From positions 1 through 32,515 of the IMG/VR virus record IMGVR_UViG_3300030328_002702: a DNA stretch of 32,515 bases. The stretch is one strand, 5' to 3'. Origin of the DNA: a virus. The notes beneath the pieces are model-generated. The model made no database searches. It was given only the letters and a program-made list of their open reading frames with translations, and was not told the DNA's origin. Shown here piece by piece: positions 3,518-27,226 of this stretch (positions within the stretch are counted from its first letter, which is position 1; every line of letters starts with the position of its first letter). The translations under genes were made by a program, and so were the position numbers.

Positions 3518-5539
3518 TTATTTCTTTGGATATGCTCCACGACCAGCTAATCTGTCTGTCGCTATTTCACTTTGTCGTGTTCCTCTAGGATTTTTTATAT
3601 AAGATCTAGGAATAGTTCCTGTTCTTTTATAATTATCTAGATTAGAGCTTTCATATTTACCTTTTTTTAATCTAAATAAAACTCTTTCCCAAACATGTTG
3701 GCAATAAATTCCTCCTTTTAGTTTAAAAATATCATATCTAATATTAGGTTTGTGTCTAAATTGAACATTTACACTTTCAAAATTACTTGCTCTGTCAATA
3801 TCTTCTATTCTCCAAACCAAACCAGATTTTCTGTTTCCACTTAATCGCATCATTTCTTTGCAAAAATCTCTTGACTTTGATGTTGTACTATATCCTTTGC
3901 CATTTGCATATCTATATCTTATTTTATATAGTCCATTTTTGCTATCTAAGTAACTAAATGCTGACCCATCTCTCCTGCTCCCTACATTATCCTCACTTGC
4001 ACCTTTAAGCCCTACAAACTCCCTTATTTTAGACAAAGTAGATTTCTTAGGTTGGATTAAATATTCTGCATAATCCTCTGCACTTATTTTTTCATCTTTC
4101 AAAACAGCGACTTCTTCGTATAATTCATCAGCAGGTCTGCCTGTTATAGCTAAACTTCCAACAACATTTTTTGCATCATCTTCACATAATTCAGTAGCTA
4201 CTTGATGATTCTCACATGGCATATAATAAGTAACTCCCTCAACATCATGTTCATGGTAACCCTCACATCCTTGTTCTTTTGCTTTCTCTATAGCTTCTTC
4301 CTTAGTTTTATATACTTCCTTGCCATCAATTTTTTTAAGATCTGTGCTAAATTCATAACCTGTTTCTTCTTCAATATCTTCTTTGTCTTGTACCATTGAA
4401 TCAACCTCAGTAAATTCTAATGGTTGTAATGTTGTAAAATAGAGGTTTAGGGAAATTTCATTATAAGCTAATATTTGATCAAAGCAATCAATTAATAATT
4501 CCTGAAATGGTCTGATTACAGTATTGTCCATTAATAAACTCGCTGTCTTTATTTCATCTGCATTATTTCCTAAACCTGACTGATCCTTAATTCCTAAAAG
4601 CATAGGCGATACAATTCTGTGAGCTACCATAATTTTCTTTGTAGATTCTTCACTCAAGAACTGATATTGTTGATGAGCATCTGAAAGCTGTACAGGAGTA
4701 ATATCTGCTGCTGCTTCTTTGTTGTCATTAAAGGCAAGTATGAATTTACCAGCATTACTCGTGCCAGAAAATTTCTGTGCTATTTTTTGTTCTAATAATT
4801 GTCTTTCTTCTTGGTTTGGAGTACCATTGTTAAAGTTAATTAACATACTTGGTGCTAGACCATTCATGATATTGTTTAAATGATAGTTTGAAATTTCTTC
4901 TTCTAGCTCTGCATATTGTAAGCCACCTTGGTAATCAACAGGTGCATAGTAATAAAATCCTGCCTTATAAGGTTTAATGTAATAAATCTCTATTGGCTCT
5001 TTTGACATATTAAAAGCAGGTATCCTTTTTGGAACTTCATTTGGTTTTAACTTAGCCCAATCTTTATAATAATAATATGCAGGAATTTGTCCATCTTCAT
5101 CTGCTTTTGCTGCTCTTAATGTCTCAACAGGTATATGTTCTAATTTAACAATCTTAGATCTGTTCTTATTATATATAACCTGAACAGAGCATTGCCCCAT
5201 TAACTTCAGATCATAACATAATTTTCTAACACAATCTTTTTTAAACAAAGAAATCATCTGTGCATATTCATCTGGTTTCCTAGATGAATCAGTTGCATTT
5301 AATCCCTTACCATATATCTGCTGACTAATGCCATTTATTGCTGCATTATTTGTTGGACTTCCATTATATCTATCAATTAAAAACTGAAAATAATTATTAT
5401 CAGCACCATAGTCAACCCAATCTCTATTGTTTACTTCAACAATCTCTGGAGATGTATATGTGCTTAAATTGACAAAACTATATTCAGAGTTATGTCTAAC
5501 AAACTGCCCTTTTTTATTTCTTTTTAAATTTTTTCTCAT
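3518..5539 (-). CDS. Portal protein with a long C-terminal extension, 673 aa
   Basis: Residues 1 to about 385 look like the portal family of Bacteroidota siphophages: YSFVNLSTYTSPEIVEVN early, then YGADNNYFQFLIDRYNGSP, a central helical region, and a segment around 300-345 (VSPMLLGIKDQSGLGNNADEIK) followed by IRPFQELL, typical of the portal wing/stem. After about residue 390 comes an acidic linker and a module with SRDFCKEMM (near 556-564) and GGIYCQHVWERV (near 615-626). The extension makes it longer than a usual 400-500 residue portal. The start overlaps the stop of the upstream gene (ATGGTACC region, 5536-5539). Function: dodecameric DNA gate for packaging by terminase. Confidence 0.8.
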   Translation of the reverse strand: MRKNLKRNKKGQFVRHNSEYSFVNLSTYTSPEIVEVNNRDWVDYGADNNYFQFLIDRYNGSPTNNAAINGISQQIYGKGLNATDSSRKPDEYAQMISLFKKDCVRKLCYDLKLMGQCSVQVIYNKNRSKIVKLEHIPVETLRAAKADEDGQIPAYYYYKDWAKLKPNEVPKRIPAFNMSKEPIEIYYIKPYKAGFYYYAPVDYQGGLQYAELEEEISNYHLNNIMNGLAPSMLINFNNGTPNQEERQLLEQKIAQKFSGTSNAGKFILAFNDNKEAAADITPVQLSDAHQQYQFLSEESTKKIMVAHRIVSPMLLGIKDQSGLGNNADEIKTASLLMDNTVIRPFQELLIDCFDQILAYNEISLNLYFTTLQPLEFTEVDSMVQDKEDIEEETGYEFSTDLKKIDGKEVYKTKEEAIEKAKEQGCEGYHEHDVEGVTYYMPCENHQVATELCEDDAKNVVGSLAITGRPADELYEEVAVLKDEKISAEDYAEYLIQPKKSTLSKIREFVGLKGASEDNVGSRRDGSAFSYLDSKNGLYKIRYRYANGKGYSTTSKSRDFCKEMMRLSGNRKSGLVWRIEDIDRASNFESVNVQFRHKPNIRYDIFKLKGGIYCQHVWERVLFRLKKGKYESSNLDNYKRTGTIPRSYIKNPRGTRQSEIATDRLAGRGAYPKK

Positions 5540-5966: not shown

Positions 5967-5974
5967 TATAACGA
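5967..5974 (-). promoter_or_regulatory. Class 2 motif TCGTTATA upstream of the portal unit
   Basis: TCGTTATA on the minus strand, followed by TTAGT and then the ATG at 5961. It lies 20 nt after a terminator T-tract, in AT-rich DNA (TTTTAAAT immediately upstream). It is one of five copies, all just upstream of start codons. Candidate late promoter core. Confidence 0.55.
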
Positions 5975-8739: not shown

Positions 8740-8747
8740 TATAACGA
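8740..8747 (-). promoter_or_regulatory. Class 2 motif TCGTTATA upstream of the scaffold/capsid unit
   Basis: TCGTTATA followed by CTATATATT and ATG at 8730. The DNA before it is AT-rich (AATTAAAA). It falls in the short gap after the 51-aa gene, where a promoter for the capsid genes would be expected. Confidence 0.55.
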
Positions 8748-8926: not shown

Positions 8927-9357
8927 TACCTTAGATTTTCAAGATTAAAAAGTTCATCTTGTAATCCTTTTCCAACAAAATATCCATTTCCTCTGACTTC
9001 TTTAAACTCTTTATATCCCTCAATATTATCTGGTGAAACTCCTAATTCTTTAGCTGCTGCTTCTGTTTTTTGTAATAAATCTTTTCCTGCATCAGTTAAT
9101 TTGTAAATTTCTGACATTAAAGATTCAGCAGGTTTTCCCATATCTTCAAGTTTATCAATTTGAGTTTGTACTTTTTCATATGAAGTTTCCATTTTTGATC
9201 TCATTGATTCTCCTTTTTTCATTAATCCTCTTAATGAATTTAAAGATTTTTTTATATCTCCTGCTAATGACAATTCAATCTTTTCAGCTTTTGCTAATTC
9301 TGTTTTATCCTTTGGTAGTTTAGAAACTATCTTATTAAATTTTTCTGGTGTAATCAT
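8926..9357 (-). CDS. Coiled-coil head-region protein, 143 aa
   Basis: ATG at 9357 overlaps the protease stop as ATGA. The sequence starts MITPEKFNKIVSKLPKDKTE and is predicted almost entirely helical with a coiled coil from about 30 to 100 (LRGLMKKGESMRSKMETSY, IDKLEDMG). It ends in a Gly-rich region (EVRGNGYFVGKG). No family recognised. Its place between protease and scaffold-like genes suggests a role in prohead assembly, which is inference. Confidence 0.55.
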   Translation of the reverse strand: MITPEKFNKIVSKLPKDKTELAKAEKIELSLAGDIKKSLNSLRGLMKKGESMRSKMETSYEKVQTQIDKLEDMGKPAESLMSEIYKLTDAGKDLLQKTEAAAKELGVSPDNIEGYKEFKEVRGNGYFVGKGLQDELFNLENLR

Positions 9358-9944
9358 GATTGTAATATTTCTTTTATTTTATTAATTAATTTTTCATCTT
9401 TTGATAATCCTACTGAATCTTTTGGTCTTTCCATTTTATCAGCGAAGTAACCCTCTATTGAGAAGCCTTTGACTTTTCCTGTTTTTACATATTCATTCCA
9501 GACCTCATCATTATTTACTTTGACTGAGCCCATCCATGTACCAACAGGCACATTCATGCCATATTTTCTAGATTTGTCAAACTTTGCATCCTCAACTATC
9601 CATGATTCTACCAATGTCAAACCATTCAAAGAATGTTGATGTTCTAAAGTTGAATTATTTTGATTTCCATTTTTGAGATATAATTGAGATGCTTTCTCAA
9701 CTGTATCTTTTGAGAAATAAATATAATAATCATCTTGATCATCTGAGTTTCTGAAAATAGGTTTATTAGGGATTAATAAAGCTCCCATTAATATTTTCTT
9801 TTCCTTATTTATTTCTGCTAATTTAATTTCATCAGCTTTTAAAGCGACAAAATCTGCTTCAATAGCAGGTGATTCTACAATACTTATTGCTTCAATCCCT
9901 GCCATTTCTTGATCTTCATCAAGCACTAATTCTACTATTCTCAT
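9354..9944 (-). CDS. XkdF-like prohead serine protease, 196 aa
   Basis: Begins MRIVELVLDEDQEMAGIEAI with SIVESPAIEADFV near 21-33, the usual opening of XkdF-type phage proteases. His102 and His104 lie in STLEHQHS, GMNVPVGTWMGSVKV spans 129-143, and GFSIEGYF (160-167) carries the candidate nucleophile Ser162. Size (196 aa) fits the family. It would cleave scaffold and capsid delta regions in the prohead. The start lies 5 nt after a TCGTTATA motif, and it overlaps the next gene by 4 nt. Catalytic assignment is from motif recognition. Confidence 0.75.
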   Translation of the reverse strand: MRIVELVLDEDQEMAGIEAISIVESPAIEADFVALKADEIKLAEINKEKKILMGALLIPNKPIFRNSDDQDDYYIYFSKDTVEKASQLYLKNGNQNNSTLEHQHSLNGLTLVESWIVEDAKFDKSRKYGMNVPVGTWMGSVKVNNDEVWNEYVKTGKVKGFSIEGYFADKMERPKDSVGLSKDEKLINKIKEILQS

Positions 9945-9949
9945 AATAT

Positions 9950-9957
9950 TATAACGA
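9950..9957 (-). promoter_or_regulatory. Class 2 motif TCGTTATA upstream of the protease gene
   Basis: TCGTTATA, then ATATT, then ATG at 9944. It lies in the 34-nt gap after the tape measure gene, preceded by AAATTAAAT. The 5-nt spacing to ATG is the same as at 5967 and 21965. Confidence 0.55.
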
Positions 9958-16226: not shown

Positions 16227-16965
16227 TTTTTATATTTCTTTTTTATTTCATTAGCTTCTAGCTCATTTTTTTCTTTCATATATTCTAACATCATAAAACA
16301 TTCATGAGCACTTAACTTAGTGATATGTTCAAATCTTCTAATATCTCCTGTAGCGAGTGAGAAAATTGCTTGATACCATCCCCATTTAGCATTAAATCCT
16401 GCTTTTGCTGTGAGGGTATTTTCTTCATTTCCTCCTTCAAATAGCGATTCATAACTACTGACAAGTCCTTTCCTAAATGATAGAAAAAAAAAACTGAGGA
16501 AATAACAGCATCCAAAGGCATCTCTAATAATCTGTCTTTTGTATCAACATTATATTCCTCTATGCTATATCTATTTCCTTTATTCTCAGTAATTGGTCTA
16601 TATAATACATTCATTGCTGTATGAATATTCTCCCAATCTCCTAAATAGGTGTCTAGGTCAATATATTCTCCAAAACTTAATTCATCTAGATCAGGAATAA
16701 AACCATATTCAACTCCATTTAGCCAGAATTTAGTAACTAAATCTGGTTTTTCAGTAAACATTTCTCCTAATATTGAAGTCACTCTATCTGCATCAGCAAA
16801 CTTAATTTTTAATACATTTTCATGACTGACCTCACAAAAGATTTCAATCATTTTAATCTGTAAAAATCTTTCATCTGCATCTTTAACATTTAATTTCACA
16901 AATTTCTGATATTTTTTCAGAGTAATTTCTGATAATTTATTTGGTATATTTAATCTCGCTTTCAT
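16223..16965 (-). CDS. Tail assembly chaperone, predicted -1 frameshift product (gpGT-like)
   Basis: Shares the N-terminus of the 217-aa chaperone but moves to the -1 frame, which is open without a stop from the T10 run to TGA 16225-16223. The -1 frame encodes AKAGFNAKWGWYQAIFSLA, then TGDIRRFEHITKLSAHECF and MLEYMKEKNELEANEIKKK. This is protein-like sequence of the type I recognise at this place in flavobacterial phages. Its TGA overlaps the next gene's start as ATGA, as expected for a real gene end. The exact slip site is not proven: T10 at 16484-16493 is the best slippery run, with GAAGAAAATA near 16430 as an alternative. Confidence 0.65.
16312..16965 (-). CDS. Tail assembly chaperone, zero-frame product, 217 aa
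   Basis: I chose ATG 16965-16963 (MKARLNIPNKLSEITLKKYQ): it follows a TCGTTATA motif, whereas the longer reading adds 19 residues across that motif. The body is helical with YGFIPDLDELSFGEYIDLDT near 108-127, and ends GDGIKQFSHSLQEILEDLN. Length, position before the tail genes and a second open frame at its 3' end fit the gpG-type tail assembly chaperone that binds the tape measure. A ten-T run lies at 16484-16493. A terminator upstream separates it from the small genes. Confidence 0.7.
   Translation of the reverse strand: MKARLNIPNKLSEITLKKYQKFVKLNVKDADERFLQIKMIEIFCEVSHENVLKIKFADADRVTSILGEMFTEKPDLVTKFWLNGVEYGFIPDLDELSFGEYIDLDTYLGDWENIHTAMNVLYRPITENKGNRYSIEEYNVDTKDRLLEMPLDAVISSVFFFYHLGKDLSVVMNRYLKEEMKKIPSQQKQDLMLNGDGIKQFSHSLQEILEDLNISLS
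16484..16493 (-). promoter_or_regulatory. Candidate slippery T10 run for -1 frameshifting
   Basis: Ten consecutive T on the coding strand, read as G-TTT-TTT-TTT-TC in frame 0 (encoding F-F-F). It satisfies the X-XXY-YYZ rule as T-TTT-TTT. The -1 frame is open from here to 16223. No stable downstream hairpin was worked out. Confidence 0.5.
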
Positions 16966-16977
16966 ATTGTATAATAG

Positions 16978-16985
16978 TATAACGA
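16978..16985 (-). promoter_or_regulatory. Class 2 motif TCGTTATA upstream of the tail operon
   Basis: TCGTTATA followed by 12 nt and the ATG at 16965. It sits about 20 nt after the terminator at 17006-17047, so the terminator ends the small-gene unit and this motif would restart transcription for the tail genes. Confidence 0.6.
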
Positions 16986-18515: not shown

Positions 18516-18546
18516 TAAATATAACAATTCTTAGGTTATAAACAAA
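18516..18546 (-). promoter_or_regulatory. Class 1 (Bacteroidota) promoter for the small-gene unit
   Basis: TTTG (18546-18543), a 19-nt spacer and TATATTTA (18523-18516) on the minus strand, against the consensus TTTG-N19-TAnnTTTG. The upstream box sits in TTAAATTTTTTGTTTATA, shared with other phage promoters. TTGTTATA inside the spacer/-7 region is also one mismatch from the class 2 motif. Confidence 0.65.
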
Positions 18547-18603: not shown

Positions 18604-18667
18604 ATGGCTCACATATCAGCTTGTTATGTATTATAGCTAATTAACAAAACAAACTTTTTGCCTTTAG

Positions 18668-18742
<75 letters not shown>

Positions 18743-19093: not shown

Positions 19094-19124
19094 CAAACAT
19101 AACACAATATAAGTTATAAACAAA
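19094..19124 (-). promoter_or_regulatory. Class 1 (Bacteroidota) promoter, perfect match
   Basis: TTTG (19124-19121), exactly 19 nt, then TATGTTTG (19101-19094), a full match to TTTG-N19-TAnnTTTG. It lies in the 69-nt gap after the terminase stop, with the shared upstream block TTAAATATTTTGTTTATA. It drives the 107-aa gene and tRNA; predicted start near 19088. Confidence 0.82.
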
Positions 19125-19141
19125 ATATTTAATAACTTTTT

Positions 19142-20305
19142 TTATTGAATAGCATATTTCCCAAAATTTGGTCTAGATAATATGGAGTAAGTCGCATATC
19201 TACATGGATCAATAATATGGTTATGCAAATCCTCTGCTATATTAATTAGCTTTCCAGATTTATCTTCTTTCCATTTATAATTCCTAAATTCCTGAATTGC
19301 ATTATTAGAATTACTTGTAATATGAATCTTATATCTTTTCAATAAATCTATGCCTGCATTTACAGAATCTCTGCCTTTTATACTCCCATGAATATTATGC
19401 CCCATTCTTCTCAATTCAGAAATTAATCTTGGCTCTGAGCTGTCTGCATAAATAGGATGTGAACTCAAATTCTCAGATCTTAAAAACTGATTAATATCAT
19501 TTGTTGTCATTTGTGTTCTATATAGATGCTCATGAATATAAAGATTATGGTCTAATGTATAAACAGAAACCAAAGTTGTAGGGTCATGGGTATATCCAAA
19601 GTCCATTCCATATGCTATTAATTTAGCTTCATCAGGAACTTTATTAATCTCAACATATCTAAAGATAGTTCTTCTAGAACTTGACCTTTCTCCTAATCCA
19701 TATATTTGCCAATATTGTTCATCTGTATCTTTTAATCTTTCTATTTCTTCTCTAATTGAATCTTCTAAAAAAGGATTATCTAAATATGTAGTTTTATAAA
19801 ACTCGCAATCTTTTCTTGGTATGACCTTATCATATATCCAATGATATTCATCAGATGGATTAAAATCAATTATTATTTTTTCCTGAGTTCTAAATATAAG
19901 CTGTTGCCAATCCTCCCAATATAATTCATTCGCTTCGTTAATAAAAAGCAAATCCCTTTTTCGCCCTCTGATTTTCTGGCTCTGATCTAAGCTAGTAAAT
20001 TCAACTAAATTCCCAAATAGATTATATTCTGAATTAGATTTATTATGATATTCCTCTCTATATATTTGATGACTTCTAAGGATATGAAGAAAATCCCTAA
20101 GAACTGTTGCTCTTAAACTTGGAAATGTTTTTCTGCATATAGTGACAATCTTTCCAGAATTATTAGTGCAATATTTAAAAATGATATATAAAAGAATATT
20201 ATAAGTTTTGCCTGATCTAGTTCCTCCCTGCTCAACTATAATTTTTGATTCACTATTCTCTAGATGCTTATAAACAATATTAGTCTGTATCTTCTGTTTT
20301 ATCAA
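19142..20305 (-). CDS. terL: Terminase large subunit, 387 aa
   Basis: Walker A GGTRSGKT is at residues 27-34. Walker B with catalytic Glu is LLFINE at 119-124. The coupling motif region follows at IIIDFNPSDEYHW near 144-156. The nuclease domain starts with GMDFGYTHDPT (233-243, first acidic residue Asp235) and continues with YADSSEP (286-292). Length and motif order match PBSX/XtmB-type large terminases. The start overlaps the small terminase gene by 26 nt. Powers DNA packaging through the portal and cuts the concatemer. Confidence 0.93.
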   Translation of the reverse strand: MIKQKIQTNIVYKHLENSESKIIVEQGGTRSGKTYNILLYIIFKYCTNNSGKIVTICRKTFPSLRATVLRDFLHILRSHQIYREEYHNKSNSEYNLFGNLVEFTSLDQSQKIRGRKRDLLFINEANELYWEDWQQLIFRTQEKIIIDFNPSDEYHWIYDKVIPRKDCEFYKTTYLDNPFLEDSIREEIERLKDTDEQYWQIYGLGERSSSRRTIFRYVEINKVPDEAKLIAYGMDFGYTHDPTTLVSVYTLDHNLYIHEHLYRTQMTTNDINQFLRSENLSSHPIYADSSEPRLISELRRMGHNIHGSIKGRDSVNAGIDLLKRYKIHITSNSNNAIQEFRNYKWKEDKSGKLINIAEDLHNHIIDPCRYATYSILSRPNFGKYAIQ

Positions 20306-20639
20306 TTATCTCAATTTGAAAGTTAGTAGGCATTCCATCAGCTCCTGTAATCTCCTGTCTTTCTATATAACCTCTTTTTTTGCCTTTGGTCTTTAAATAG
20401 AAAATTGTCGCTGTTGTTGAATTATCTGCTATCTGTCTATGTAATTGACTTTCTACAAAATCTAATGCGATATTATCAATGTCCTGAACTTTCTGAGCAA
20501 AATCATCATCTTCTTTCATCCACTTATAAAAAGTGCTTCTAGGTATATCTGCTTTCTTGCAAGCCATATTGACAACCCCTAAACTCTGCTCTAATGCTTT
20601 TAAAACTGATTCCTTTTTTATGTGTCTACTTTTGTCCAT
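20280..20639 (-). CDS. terS: Terminase small subunit, 119 aa
   Basis: Starts MDKSRHIKKESVLKALEQSL. Residues 14-48 form a helix-turn-helix (VLKALEQSLGVVNMACKKAD then IPRSTFYKWMKED), followed by a helical oligomerisation region with LHRQIADNSTTATIFYLKTK near 67-86. HTH followed by an NxTATIFYLK-like segment is typical of phage small terminases. It overlaps terL by 26 nt and starts within 1 nt of the glycosyltransferase stop. Recognises the packaging site. Confidence 0.85.
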   Translation of the reverse strand: MDKSRHIKKESVLKALEQSLGVVNMACKKADIPRSTFYKWMKEDDDFAQKVQDIDNIALDFVESQLHRQIADNSTTATIFYLKTKGKKRGYIERQEITGADGMPTNFQIEIIDKTEDTD

Positions 20640-21355
20640 TATAGATTTAATTTTATTGTAAATTCATTTGCTTTTCTTTTGACCTGAGAAATCATTGATG
20701 GATATAATTTAATCAAATCTTTAATCGCTTTTCTTTCTATTTGAATTGTCCTATAATCTTTGCAACCTCCATCCTGAGTCCAATGATCATTCTCCCAATG
20801 TAAATATCTAATTCCTAAAATTCCCCCTTTGTCTTTTATATGTCTAAGGCAAATTTCATAATCTTCTTTAACTACAAAATTTTCATCAAAATAATATTCT
20901 CCATCATTTATAATTCCCATGAGAGATGCAGTAACATATGTTCTGGTTAATATAGGTTTATAGGGGTATGATCCTCTAGGGCTTGATTCTGTTCTTGTTC
21001 CCCAAATCTTATATCCCATTTGCTCACATAAATCAAAATATTTTAAAAATTCTTCCATCCAAAAACCCTGATCTTTTATTTGTACTTTTCTAGTATTTCT
21101 TTTATCTAAAAAATTATAACCAACATTCTTAGCATCATCATCAATCATAACTACCCATTTCTCTTTGCTATTTTTTAAAATCCAATTTCTAGTAGGTGTA
21201 ATCCCTCTCACTTCTTTTGGAATGCAAACTATATTTTTAACTAATCCTTTATATTGATGATATTCACTTTCAGGAATAAAAAAAGTAGCATCAGGTAATA
21301 TTTTATTAGTGCTAGTTAATCCTGCTCTGCTTTTACTTGGTACTGCTATTAACAT
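20639..21355 (-). CDS. TET-associated glycosyltransferase (TAGT)-like protein, 238 aa
   Basis: Starts MLIAVPSKSRAGLTSTNKIL, a nucleotide-sugar-binding-type first strand and loop. VVMIDDDA (68-75) is the DxD-like metal/nucleotide site. KEDYEICLRH lies at 163-172 and HWENDHW near 186-192. This is the pattern of the TAGT family, linked to base hypermodification in phages and usually adjacent to terminase or ParB genes, as here. No TET/JBP hydroxylase or pyrimidine hydroxymethylase is recognisable in the window, so the acceptor is unclear. It overlaps the ParB-like gene by 23 nt. Confidence 0.75.
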   Translation of the reverse strand: MLIAVPSKSRAGLTSTNKILPDATFFIPESEYHQYKGLVKNIVCIPKEVRGITPTRNWILKNSKEKWVVMIDDDAKNVGYNFLDKRNTRKVQIKDQGFWMEEFLKYFDLCEQMGYKIWGTRTESSPRGSYPYKPILTRTYVTASLMGIINDGEYYFDENFVVKEDYEICLRHIKDKGGILGIRYLHWENDHWTQDGGCKDYRTIQIERKAIKDLIKLYPSMISQVKRKANEFTIKLNL

Positions 21356-21959
21356 TTAATCTTTTTTTAAATTCATCCCAATATAAAACTCTTTCTAAAC
21401 TTACAGCATCAAATCCACTTCCTTTTTTATAACCTCCTCGCCTGACCATTTTTAATTTTAATATTTCTTTTAACTCCTCCCAATCTACTGAATTTGGCTC
21501 AGCCATAATTAATATATATTCTTTTGGTGGAACTAATTGAACTGACTGAGGTAATTCAATTTCATCATCATCTTCTAAATTATCTATCTGATCATTTATT
21601 GGAAGGTCTAAACCCCAATCTTCTAAGAGATCAACATCCCATTCATTTGCTAATATATCCCAATCCCAATCTCCAAAAGATGAATTGTCTTTTATTATAA
21701 ATTCTTTTTTCTGATCCTCTGTCAAATCATCTGCCTGTATAACATATATTTCCTTTAGTCCTGATTCTATACAAGCTTTGTATCTCATATTTCCCCCTAG
21801 AATTATATTGTTTTCATCTACAACAATTGGTCTAAGTTTTAACATTTCTGGAAAATCTTTTATTGACTTTACTAACTTATCAAATTTAGCACCCTTTATA
21901 AATCTAGGATTTTCAGGATTCATTTTTATTTTATGTGTTTTAACTTTTACAGGTTTCAT
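21333..21959 (-). CDS. ParB/sulfiredoxin-fold protein, 208 aa
   Basis: I chose ATG 21959-21957 (MKPVKVKTHKIKMNPENPRF), which follows a TCGTTATA motif; the longer form adds nine residues across that motif. ParB-type boxes: NPENPR at 14-19 and GGNMRYKA at 55-62, the latter forming the nucleotide-binding loop. After residue 90 come DNSSFGDWDWDILANEWDVD and an acidic linker, then a C-terminal helical part. Such phage ParB-like proteins are often found next to terminase or DNA-modification genes. Function here is probably DNA binding linked to packaging or modification, not partition. Confidence 0.75.
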   Translation of the reverse strand: MKPVKVKTHKIKMNPENPRFIKGAKFDKLVKSIKDFPEMLKLRPIVVDENNIILGGNMRYKACIESGLKEIYVIQADDLTEDQKKEFIIKDNSSFGDWDWDILANEWDVDLLEDWGLDLPINDQIDNLEDDDEIELPQSVQLVPPKEYILIMAEPNSVDWEELKEILKLKMVRRGGYKKGSGFDAVSLERVLYWDEFKKRLNVNSSTK

Positions 21960-21963
21960 ATTA

Positions 21964-22347
21964 TTATAACGAGTTTTGGCAATCATTTAACTTAGATTCT
22001 AATAATTTACATTTATTTTCTAAATAGTGAACTCTATCAATCTGATCTAGATTTAATTTACTTCTAAATGTAAAAAGTTTTTCTATCTCATTTAATTTCT
22101 TATTTGTCTTTTTATACATTTTATAATTATTAACTGAGTGAATGCAAGTAGCATGGGTCATTGTTTTATTATTTTCTGCAAAAAATTTAGCAATTAAAGT
22201 CCACCTCATATTTAATTTTTCTCTTAATAAATAACAAAGTAATGATCTAAATTCTATTTGATTTTTTCTTCTATTATTTTCAAAAATATTAACTCCAGAT
22301 TCTTTAATAATTCTTTTAGCAATTTGTATAGGTTTTAAATTCTTCAT
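21964..22347 (-). CDS. DnaA domain IV-like DNA-binding protein, 127 aa
   Basis: Residues 33-76 read FRSLLCYLLREKLNMRWTLI then AKFFAENNKTMTHATCIHSV, closely following the helix-turn-helix of DnaA domain IV (signature region with T-H-x-T-x-x-H). The rest is a basic helical tail. No AAA+ domain is present, so it would bind DNA as a stand-alone module, perhaps recruiting host replication proteins to the phage origin. Its ATG overlaps the exonuclease stop by 4 nt. Confidence 0.65.
   Translation of the reverse strand: MKNLKPIQIAKRIIKESGVNIFENNRRKNQIEFRSLLCYLLREKLNMRWTLIAKFFAENNKTMTHATCIHSVNNYKMYKKTNKKLNEIEKLFTFRSKLNLDQIDRVHYLENKCKLLESKLNDCQNSL
21965..21972 (-). promoter_or_regulatory. Class 2 motif TCGTTATA upstream of ParB/terminase
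   Basis: TCGTTATA, then ATAAT, then ATG at 21959. It lies in the last codons of the DnaA-like gene, whose stop TAA overlaps the motif end. It would start the packaging unit. Confidence 0.55.
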
Positions 22348-23689: not shown

Positions 23690-24177
23690 AATTTTCTAGG
23701 TATTTTAATTGATTTAATATCTTGACTATCTATCAGAGTTAGCACATCTTTACTCCCTGATCTATTATATAATTTATAAAGAGGAAAATGATTAACATAA
23801 ACCTTTTCAACTCTATCTTTTAATAGTTGAACTAAATCTTCTCTCCATACAAATAGCCATTGAGTTTTTTGTTTAAAAGCAATATAATGAGCTTTTCCAA
23901 ATGCCCATCCATCAAATCCATATGGGTTTTTTATTTCAATCCATAAATATTTGTCATTTTTAGGTTGACCTCTTTTTAAACTTTTTCTGTCTTTTATATC
24001 TGTAGTTATTTGAGTTTCTACAGCTTTAGTAATGAAGGAAATTTTACCATCAATGTGATCGTATTTATTTTCATTGAGGGTAACAGATTCAAATTCTAGA
24101 TCCTTTAAATCTTGTTGTTCAATAGGATTGTATCGTTTAATTAATTCTTCTGATAATTTTCTATTATATTCATTCAC
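23686..24177 (-). CDS. Possible PD-(D/E)XK-type nuclease-like protein, 163 aa
   Basis: The only in-frame start near the promoter is GTG 24177-24175 (reads VNEYNRKLSEELIK, M as first residue). The pattern DHIDGKISF (near 40-48), then KYLWIEIKNPYGFDGWAFG (near 77-95) gives an acidic residue followed by E-x-K, as in restriction-endonuclease-fold proteins. AHYIAFKQKTQWLFVW supplies the following core strand. This is a weak-motif inference; a non-nuclease family is possible. The -7 element ends 4 nt upstream, so the mRNA is predicted leaderless. Confidence 0.55.
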   Translation of the reverse strand: MNEYNRKLSEELIKRYNPIEQQDLKDLEFESVTLNENKYDHIDGKISFITKAVETQITTDIKDRKSLKRGQPKNDKYLWIEIKNPYGFDGWAFGKAHYIAFKQKTQWLFVWREDLVQLLKDRVEKVYVNHFPLYKLYNRSGSKDVLTLIDSQDIKSIKIPRKL

Positions 24178-24181
24178 ATAA

Positions 24182-24212
24182 CAAACATAATAAAAAAAAA
24201 GATATAAACAAA
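24182..24212 (-). promoter_or_regulatory. Class 1 (Bacteroidota) promoter, perfect match
   Basis: TTTG (24212-24209), 19 nt, TATGTTTG (24189-24182). The upstream box is in AAACTTTTTGTTTATA, as at the other class 1 sites. The GTG start at 24177 falls about where transcription should begin. Confidence 0.8.
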
Positions 24213-24426: not shown

Positions 24427-24599
24427 CTTTTTATCTTAATATTATTTAATGCTTTCTGTCTATCATCACATCCACAATCTTCATATCCTAATTTATTAGC
24501 TATCCATTTTGAAATTCTTTTGCCCTGACCTAATGTTAAGACCTTAATAATAAAAGCAATCAGATCTCCAATTTTAATTCTATAATAATCATTTTTCAT
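24420..24599 (-). CDS. Small protein encoded next to the sigma factor, 59 aa
   Basis: ATG 24599-24597 overlaps the sigma factor stop as ATGA. The peptide begins MKNDYYRIKIGDLIAFIIKV and continues with GQGKRISKWIANKLGYEDCG and CDDRQK. A hydrophobic helix (12-24) and a CxC pair are visible. Tight coupling to the sigma gene makes a regulator or anti-sigma role conceivable, but nothing in the sequence proves it. It fills the 170-nt gap. Confidence 0.6.
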   Translation of the reverse strand: MKNDYYRIKIGDLIAFIIKVLTLGQGKRISKWIANKLGYEDCGCDDRQKALNNIKIKRW

Positions 24600-25069
24600 A
24601 ATAATTTTTTCAATCTTTCTTTCACTTTTGTATAAGTATTATAAAGTGAATAATATGGAATATGAGTTTTTCTGGATAGCGAAGCAATGCTTTCTCCTCC
24701 ATTTATTAATTCAAATATTCTTTTGTCATACCAATACATTTTGTCTAATTCTTTTTGAATTGCTTTATATGTTCCTAAATAATCTGGATCATCACTTTTA
24801 TTTTTTATATTTTCTAGACCTTCAATATAAATATTTTTTTTCTTTCTTGTTAAATCTATAAACAAGCTGTTTAGTGTTCTAAATATATAATAATAATTTA
24901 TTTCAGTTTCATTATATCTAATATCTAATCCTTTTTGTACTTTGATTATTATTTTAACATACATCTCCTGCACCAGATCTTCAGCTATTGTATCATTGCA
25001 ACCAAATGATTTCACGATTTTAATCCATGTCTTGTGTTTATCATAAAGCTGTTCAATATCTTTTTTCAT
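24596..25069 (-). CDS. Phage-encoded sigma-70 family factor, 157 aa
   Basis: Region 2: AEDLVQEMYVKI (29-40), matching the core-binding helix of small sigma factors, then YIFRTLNSLFIDLTRKKK (61-78), the -10 recognition/melting helix. After an acidic linker, region 4-like sequence WYDKRIFELINGGESIASLS (113-132) and RKTHIPYYSLYNTYTKVKER (133-152) forms a helix-turn-helix. Length fits an ECF-like two-domain factor. It overlaps the helicase gene by 17 nt. It would redirect host RNA polymerase, probably to the TCGTTATA sites before the late genes. Confidence 0.8.
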   Translation of the reverse strand: MKKDIEQLYDKHKTWIKIVKSFGCNDTIAEDLVQEMYVKIIIKVQKGLDIRYNETEINYYYIFRTLNSLFIDLTRKKKNIYIEGLENIKNKSDDPDYLGTYKAIQKELDKMYWYDKRIFELINGGESIASLSRKTHIPYYSLYNTYTKVKERLKKLL

Positions 25070-27171: not shown

Positions 27172-27202
27172 TCATTCTAAGTATGGCATAAATATAAACA
27201 AA
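27172..27202 (-). promoter_or_regulatory. Class 1-like promoter of the recombination unit (weak -7)
   Basis: The conserved block TTAAATTTTTTGTTTATA is fully present, with TTTG at 27202-27199. The element 19 nt downstream is TAGAATGA (27179-27172), a poor match to TAnnTTTG. Strong upstream box with weak -7 suggests lower activity or an activator. Confidence 0.5.
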
Positions 27203-27226
27203 AAATTTAATAAAACAAAATTAGAC

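Follow-up and report, generated by a model that had tools for sequence, protein, structure and literature searches.

The stretch of DNA analysed here (32,515 bp, 30% G+C; hereafter the window) is an IMG/VR virus record whose main genes all lie on the minus strand. A preliminary description had recognised sigma regions 2 and 4 in one of its proteins, of 157 aa, and had named this protein as the likely reader of the TCGTTATA sites found before late genes, raising the question of which sigma factor serves these genes and from what kind of promoter. We consider it very likely that a phage-encoded ECF-type sigma redirects the host core polymerase to late promoters that abut the start codon. By computation, we observed the sigma fold, the promoter layout with its fixed spacing, the association with late genes, the co-occurrence of sigma and promoter, and a change of promoter sequence with sigma divergence.

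Pfam Sigma70_r2 matched residues 8-78 of the 157-aa protein (E=5.6e-4, 20.1 bits), below the gathering cut-off of 24 bits, region 4 gave no Pfam match, and in PHROGs the protein matched an uncharacterised family (5e-10). An AlphaFold2 model, built with 37 sequences, showed two helical domains (mean pLDDT 87, pTM 0.49); because of the low pTM the relative orientation of sigma2 and sigma4 is unreliable, while the per-domain matches are reliable. The best Foldseek matches of the model were ECF sigmas. In VIA-align, residues 95-157 were superposed on region 4 of E. coli sigmaE with its -35 DNA (Z 8.7, rmsd 1.7, 63 aligned), residues 1-75/81 on sigma2 of SigR (Z 9.3, rmsd 2.0), and the N-terminal domain on sigma2 of sigmaE bound to -10 DNA (Z 8.2). 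Both regions recognised earlier are thus borne out by structural matches of the model to ECF sigmas, and the protein has the ECF (group 4) layout of sigma2 and sigma4 only, without sigma1.1 or sigma3. With a single query, relatives of the sigma were found in at least 297 IMG/VR stretches, 80 of which were kept for analysis, and no homologue was found in bacterial or archaeal genome contigs.

We found TCGTTATA five times in the window, always on the minus (coding) strand; 0.27 copies were expected, and 100 shuffles gave two at most. The core CGTTATA is likewise present in five exact copies, each on the coding strand, and is absent from the opposite strand. In a de novo enrichment of 5-mers and offsets, CGTTA at -12 was among the leading signals for the window clade (18 vs 0.69 expected) and ranked first for the Inhavirus clade (10 vs 0.17 expected); opposite-strand sites numbered 0 and 1. 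A chance origin of the motif was ruled out by the shuffles and this enrichment. The C of the five cores lies 12, 12, 12, 16 and 19 nt before a start codon, and the operons behind them are those for packaging (21959), tail (16965) and head (9944, 8730, 5961). Among 42 gene starts the motif is present at 5/19 in the late blocks and at 0/23 elsewhere (Fisher P = 0.014). The earlier placing of class 2 motifs before packaging, tail and head genes therefore applies to every one of the five copies, 12-19 nt before such starts, and the sigma gene lies upstream of all five sites in the direction of transcription, as had also been stated.

The coordinates are collected in Table 1. The site at 21965 has a weak -35 and heads the ParB-like/glycosyltransferase/terminase operon, for which the mechanical ORF start at 21986 was rejected and the ATG at 21959 taken. 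The tail site at 16978..16985 lies downstream of a T-run/terminator-like sequence, and a terminator-like hairpin with a T-run precedes the site at 5967..5974. In clade A sites with d=12, two positions of the -35-like CAAA are A in 22/22. ECF target promoters have an AAC-type -35 and a CGT-type -10 at about 16-17 bp. Going beyond the preliminary description, the CGTTATA motif is predicted from this layout to be the ECF-type -10 of a two-part promoter with a -35 partner.

Table 1. Coordinates of genes and predicted promoter elements in the window
Feature	Position	Strand	Remarks
Phage ECF-type sigma factor, 157 aa	24596..25069	-	ORF, ATG; sigma2 residues 1-81, sigma4 residues 95-157
Putative class 2 -10 (TCGTTATA)	21965..21972	-	C 12 nt before ATG 21959; overlaps 3′ end of DnaA_C-like gene
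Putative class 2 -10	16978..16985	-	C 19 nt before ATG 16965, tail gene; predicted 7-nt leader
Putative class 2 -10	9950..9957	-	C 12 nt before ATG 9944, prohead protease gene
Putative class 2 -10	8740..8747	-	C 16 nt before ATG 8730; head-module gene (scaffold-like, by position)
Putative class 2 -10	5967..5974	-	C 12 nt before ATG 5961, gene upstream of portal
-35-like CAAA	5989..5992	-	15 bp before CGTT; read from sequence
-35-like CAAA	8762..8765	-	15 bp before CGTT
-35-like CAAA	9972..9975	-	15 bp before CGTT
-35-like AAAA	17000..17003	-	15 bp before CGTT
Putative class 1 host-type promoter (TTG-N19-TATGTTTG)	24182..24211	-	
Putative class 1 host-type promoter (TTG-N19-TATGTTTG)	19094..19123	-	
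Class 1-like -33 element (AATTTTTTGTTTATA), weak -7	27183..27205	-	from sequence
ParB-like protein, first packaging-operon gene	21333..21959	-	
Terminase large subunit	19142..20305	-	
Conserved tail-region protein	16312..16965	-	sigma-independent bait in searches
Head maturation protease	9354..9944	-	PHROG match
Portal protein	3518..5539	-	41% identical to P12024S over aligned part

Several other features of the window were observed. In the packaging operon, a TAGT-type glycosyltransferase (TET-associated; 20639-21355) stands beside the ParB-like protein (21333-21959), a pair for which DNA base hypermodification is possible. The frame at 21964-22347 encodes a DnaA C-terminal-domain-like protein (E=7.5e-6, below the cut-off), and its stop codon overlaps the late promoter. 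A tRNA-Met (CAT) gene lies between late modules (18667-18742, minus strand). Both ends of the contig (1-2908 and 30277-32515, minus strand) hold long repetitive tail-fibre-like frames, and the record may therefore break within one such gene.

The promoter layout recurs in relatives of this virus, among them a cultured pair of phages, P12024S and P12024L. This pair carries a variant core, CGTTAATA, with a conserved -35, AAAACAAA; in the Nonlabens (Persicivirga) phage P12024S this replaces the CGTTATA of the window, and the spacer is 1 bp shorter. P12024S shares 17 or so window genes, and its gp33, annotated with sigma-70 region 2, is a homologous sigma with 28% identity. Seven such promoters were located in P12024S by eye, and in six of them the distance from the C to an ATG annotated in GenBank is exactly 12 nt; in the papers searched on P12024S/Inhavirus, which gave genome and metagenome mentions only, we found no description of them. 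The alignment of Inhavirus promoters reads TATAAAACAAAA, spacer, TTTT, CGTTAATA, four bases, ATG; each base of AAAAC, at -22..-18 relative to the C, is shared by 10 or 11 of the 11 sites. The Inhavirus clade accordingly has the spacing AAAAC-N17-CGTT, the window clade has [C/A]AAA at the -35, and a CGT -10 is found in most clades.

We then asked whether sigma and promoter occur together. The preliminary description had singled out motif-bearing relatives without a sigma gene as the case that would speak against the link. Among 11 records of at least 19 kb, fetched by the promoter pattern or the tail gene and thus blind to the sigma, 11 encode it, and the sigma-negative records that were checked are fragments that stop short of the sigma region. 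A search of 2.9 million viral contigs with the Inhavirus promoter pattern returned 11 stretches, all from this phage group; as a spacing control, the pattern with one base less returned 2 unrelated contigs, both without sigma. CGTTA at -12 was found at 6/95 starts in P12024S and at 0/522 starts in four sigma-less flavobacterial phages (Cellulophaga phi10:1, Flavobacterium Fpv5, Polaribacter P12002L and Croceibacter P2559S). This co-occurrence, together with the layout in P12024S, supports the proposal that the sigma reads the TCGTTATA sites, from which we infer that it physically binds them.

The sequence of the promoter also changes with that of the sigma. A sigma with 49% identity (L130/L132) is accompanied by CGTTACA before two genes and by CGTTATA before another, and one with about 36% (L149/L153) goes with CGTTATATAG. 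In the L143 clade (32%) the -35 is GGAGTACA and the -10 is CGTACATA, and the sigmas of L145 (33%) and L154 (24%) are paired with CATTTATA and CGTTTATA, respectively. The first base of the variant cores CGTTAyA, CGTACATA, CATTTATA and CGTTTATA always lies 12 nt from the ATG. In the most divergent clades, L143 and L145, only one promoter is visible per genome; since only one gene per genome carries it, the de novo k-mer search missed the promoter of the L143 clade, which was seen by aligning the regions upstream of the tail gene. In the group L140-L142, TATATATTA, consisting of A+T only, replaces CGTTATA 11-23 nt before the ATG of tail, protease and head genes; the 5-10 kb fragments of this group contain the tail gene and no sigma. 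Shared ancestry could yield such covariation of sigma and promoter without direct contact, and this confounder stays in these data.

The same promoters might instead be served by an ECF sigma of the host, or by its sigmaA together with a phage activator, leaving the phage sigma with a different role. Flavobacteria possess their own ECF sigmas, and ECF sigmas commonly use CGT-type -10 elements. There is also a precedent in phage P23-45, whose late promoters use the host sigma with phage factors (PMC7403470). Against reading by a host sigma, the promoter sequence changes with the phage sigma from one phage clade to the next, every long promoter-bearing record has the sigma, and sigma-less flavobacterial phages are without the promoters. 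Moreover, no other regulator common to the window and P12024S was found: the ParB-like and DnaA_C-like genes of the window have no counterpart in P12024S, so the sigma is the only shared candidate regulator found. We therefore regard reading by a host sigma as quite unlikely and retain the phage sigma as the probable reader.

The distance between the motif and the start codon bears on where transcription would begin. The C lies exactly 12 nt before the ATG at 35/63 relative sites, by far the commonest distance, and terminator-like hairpins are found within 130 nt upstream of 22/63 sites vs 61/700 other starts. At sites with a displaced ATG, TA is still present at +11/+12 in 12/28, where the local TA frequency is 0.18 and some of the 28 are coding-sequence matches. 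The class with a distance of 10 nt (tgCGTTATAGAGATGAAATT) was rejected in part as a coding artefact inside a conserved nuclease-like gene, which leaves the 12-nt class unaffected. In one subclade (L021:7672, L050:4861, L064:5552 and others) a conserved CGTTATATAATTGAATAAACAAAT about 33 nt before the ATG is a putative late promoter that would give a real leader.

So constant a distance from the ATG might also be expected of a signal for translation initiation like the Kozak-like one of F. johnsoniae, and in Bacteroidetes the bases preceding the start codon do tune initiation (PMC6847099). The described Kozak-like signal, however, is an A at -3 and not CGTTA at -12. The motif stands at operon heads and is enriched behind terminator-like hairpins, is paired with a -35 at a constant spacing, and is missing from most genes and from sigma-less phages; on these grounds we rejected a translation signal as highly improbable and continue to treat the motif as a promoter element.

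In the -7 element of the host, the first base is a T at -12 (PMC6847099). With the C likewise at -12, the +1 in the commonest arrangement would be the A of the ATG, and since the -10 abuts the start codon, late mRNAs are predicted to be leaderless or short-leadered. Transcription by the sigma could begin several bases away, giving short leaders instead of none: distances other than 12 nt occur at four of every nine relative sites, and at 2/5 window sites the C is 16-19 nt before the ATG. Yet 12 nt predominates, and the host -7, with its T at -12, is spaced in the same way (PMC6847099); we regard general short leaders as rather unlikely. Late mRNAs should, judging from the -10/ATG spacing, be leaderless or near-leaderless. 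This prediction is of note against the situation in two Bacteroidetes species: leaders of <10 nt are rare, at about 3.7%, in Bacteroides thetaiotaomicron (PMC7366714), and leaders of >10 nt are found in 87% of predicted transcripts in F. johnsoniae (PMC6847099). Conceivably, the leaderless layout is a second switch: nearly all structural mRNAs made late in infection would lack a leader and would be translated by a route, via 70S or altered ribosomes, that persists while host translation falls. We hold this idea to be doubtful; its premise is the rarity of the leaderless class in Bacteroidetes hosts, and if true, the sigma family would couple transcriptional and translational takeover.

Host-type (class 1) promoters are distributed differently from class 2 sites. 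The pattern TTTG-N17..21-TANNTTTG occurs four times on the coding strand of the window vs 0.8 expected, and clear class 1 promoters precede the genes at 24177 and 19072. Two class 1 promoters lie inside the late half, before accessory genes, and the element at 27183..27205 is the closest upstream candidate for the recombination/sigma gene block. Four near-identical TTTTTTGTTTATA sequences, corresponding to class 1 -33 regions, were observed at 18541, 19114, 24208 and 27190, upstream of early/accessory genes. The preliminary description had assigned class 1 promoters to recombination and accessory genes: accessory genes are indeed preceded by them, and the set is smaller and less certain than class 2. 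In both the window and P12024S, most TTTG/TANNTTTG sites lie upstream of early or accessory genes. The sigma operon of P12024S lies behind a host-type promoter at 19644, and every class 2 site of that phage precedes a late gene. The early-to-late switch suggested before fits this arrangement, host-type sites apparently leading to the sigma block and class 2 sites to late genes, and from it we infer the timing.

Based on this distribution, we propose that the host holoenzyme makes the sigma, and that the sigma with host core makes the late mRNAs. The sigma would be made early, in a block served by host-type promoters, and would then bind host core RNA polymerase and steer it to the late promoters. 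The predicted late promoter is [C/A]AAA-N15-CGTTATA-N5-A(+1) in the window clade and AAAACAAA-N14-CGTTAATA-N4-A(+1) in Inhavirus, with the C of CGTT at about -12 and the +1 mostly at the A of the ATG. The mRNAs for packaging, tail and head would begin at their initiation codon or no more than a few bases away. For these marine flavobacterial phages, a large group that is mostly uncultured, this provides a transcription programme that can be tested, with P12024S/L as the cultured pair. The natural sigma/promoter pairs, varied in both -10 and -35, are material on promoter choice by a minimal sigma, and the promoter rule can mark late operons in metagenomic phage contigs.

Known systems share parts of this arrangement. 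The cellular ECF sigmas SigH, SigL, AlgU/RpoE and SigW also consist of sigma2-sigma4 only and have a fold similar to that of the window sigma. They usually come with an anti-sigma and a stress regulon. Unlike them, the window sigma is encoded in a phage genome. Late transcripts of Thermus phage P23-45 are leaderless. That phage also moves the host polymerase off early promoters and onto middle/late ones, by means of gp39 and gp76 acting on host sigmaA and not by a phage sigma (PMC7403470). The known relatives in function are gp36 of phiEco32 and gp47 of Salmonella phage 7-11 (PMC8948821; PMC4331800). The first of these, gp36, is a phage sigma for middle/late promoters (tAATGTAtA) with starts 6-8 bp downstream of the -10, and these are single-element promoters, with no -35, in an E. 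coli host (PMC8948821). Like the window sigma as proposed here, gp36 is described there as phage-encoded and as redirecting host core polymerase to late phage promoters. In contrast, the window family has a bipartite promoter, a predicted sigma4, Bacteroidetes hosts and a -10 abutting the ATG; the consulted passages of PMC8948821 contain no mention of a leaderless arrangement for the late promoters of phiEco32 or 7-11. They give gp47, with 15% identity to gp36, a bipartite late promoter, GTAAtg-N16-aCTA (PMC8948821). On that description, a distant sigma goes with a divergent promoter in 7-11, a pattern much like that between the clades here; the sequence of the 7-11 promoter and its host are unrelated to those of the window family. 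Taken together, the comparison gives good support to a predicted phiEco32-type switch in the window family, in which the promoter is ECF-like and in two parts, the hosts are Bacteroidetes and the -10 abuts the start codon.
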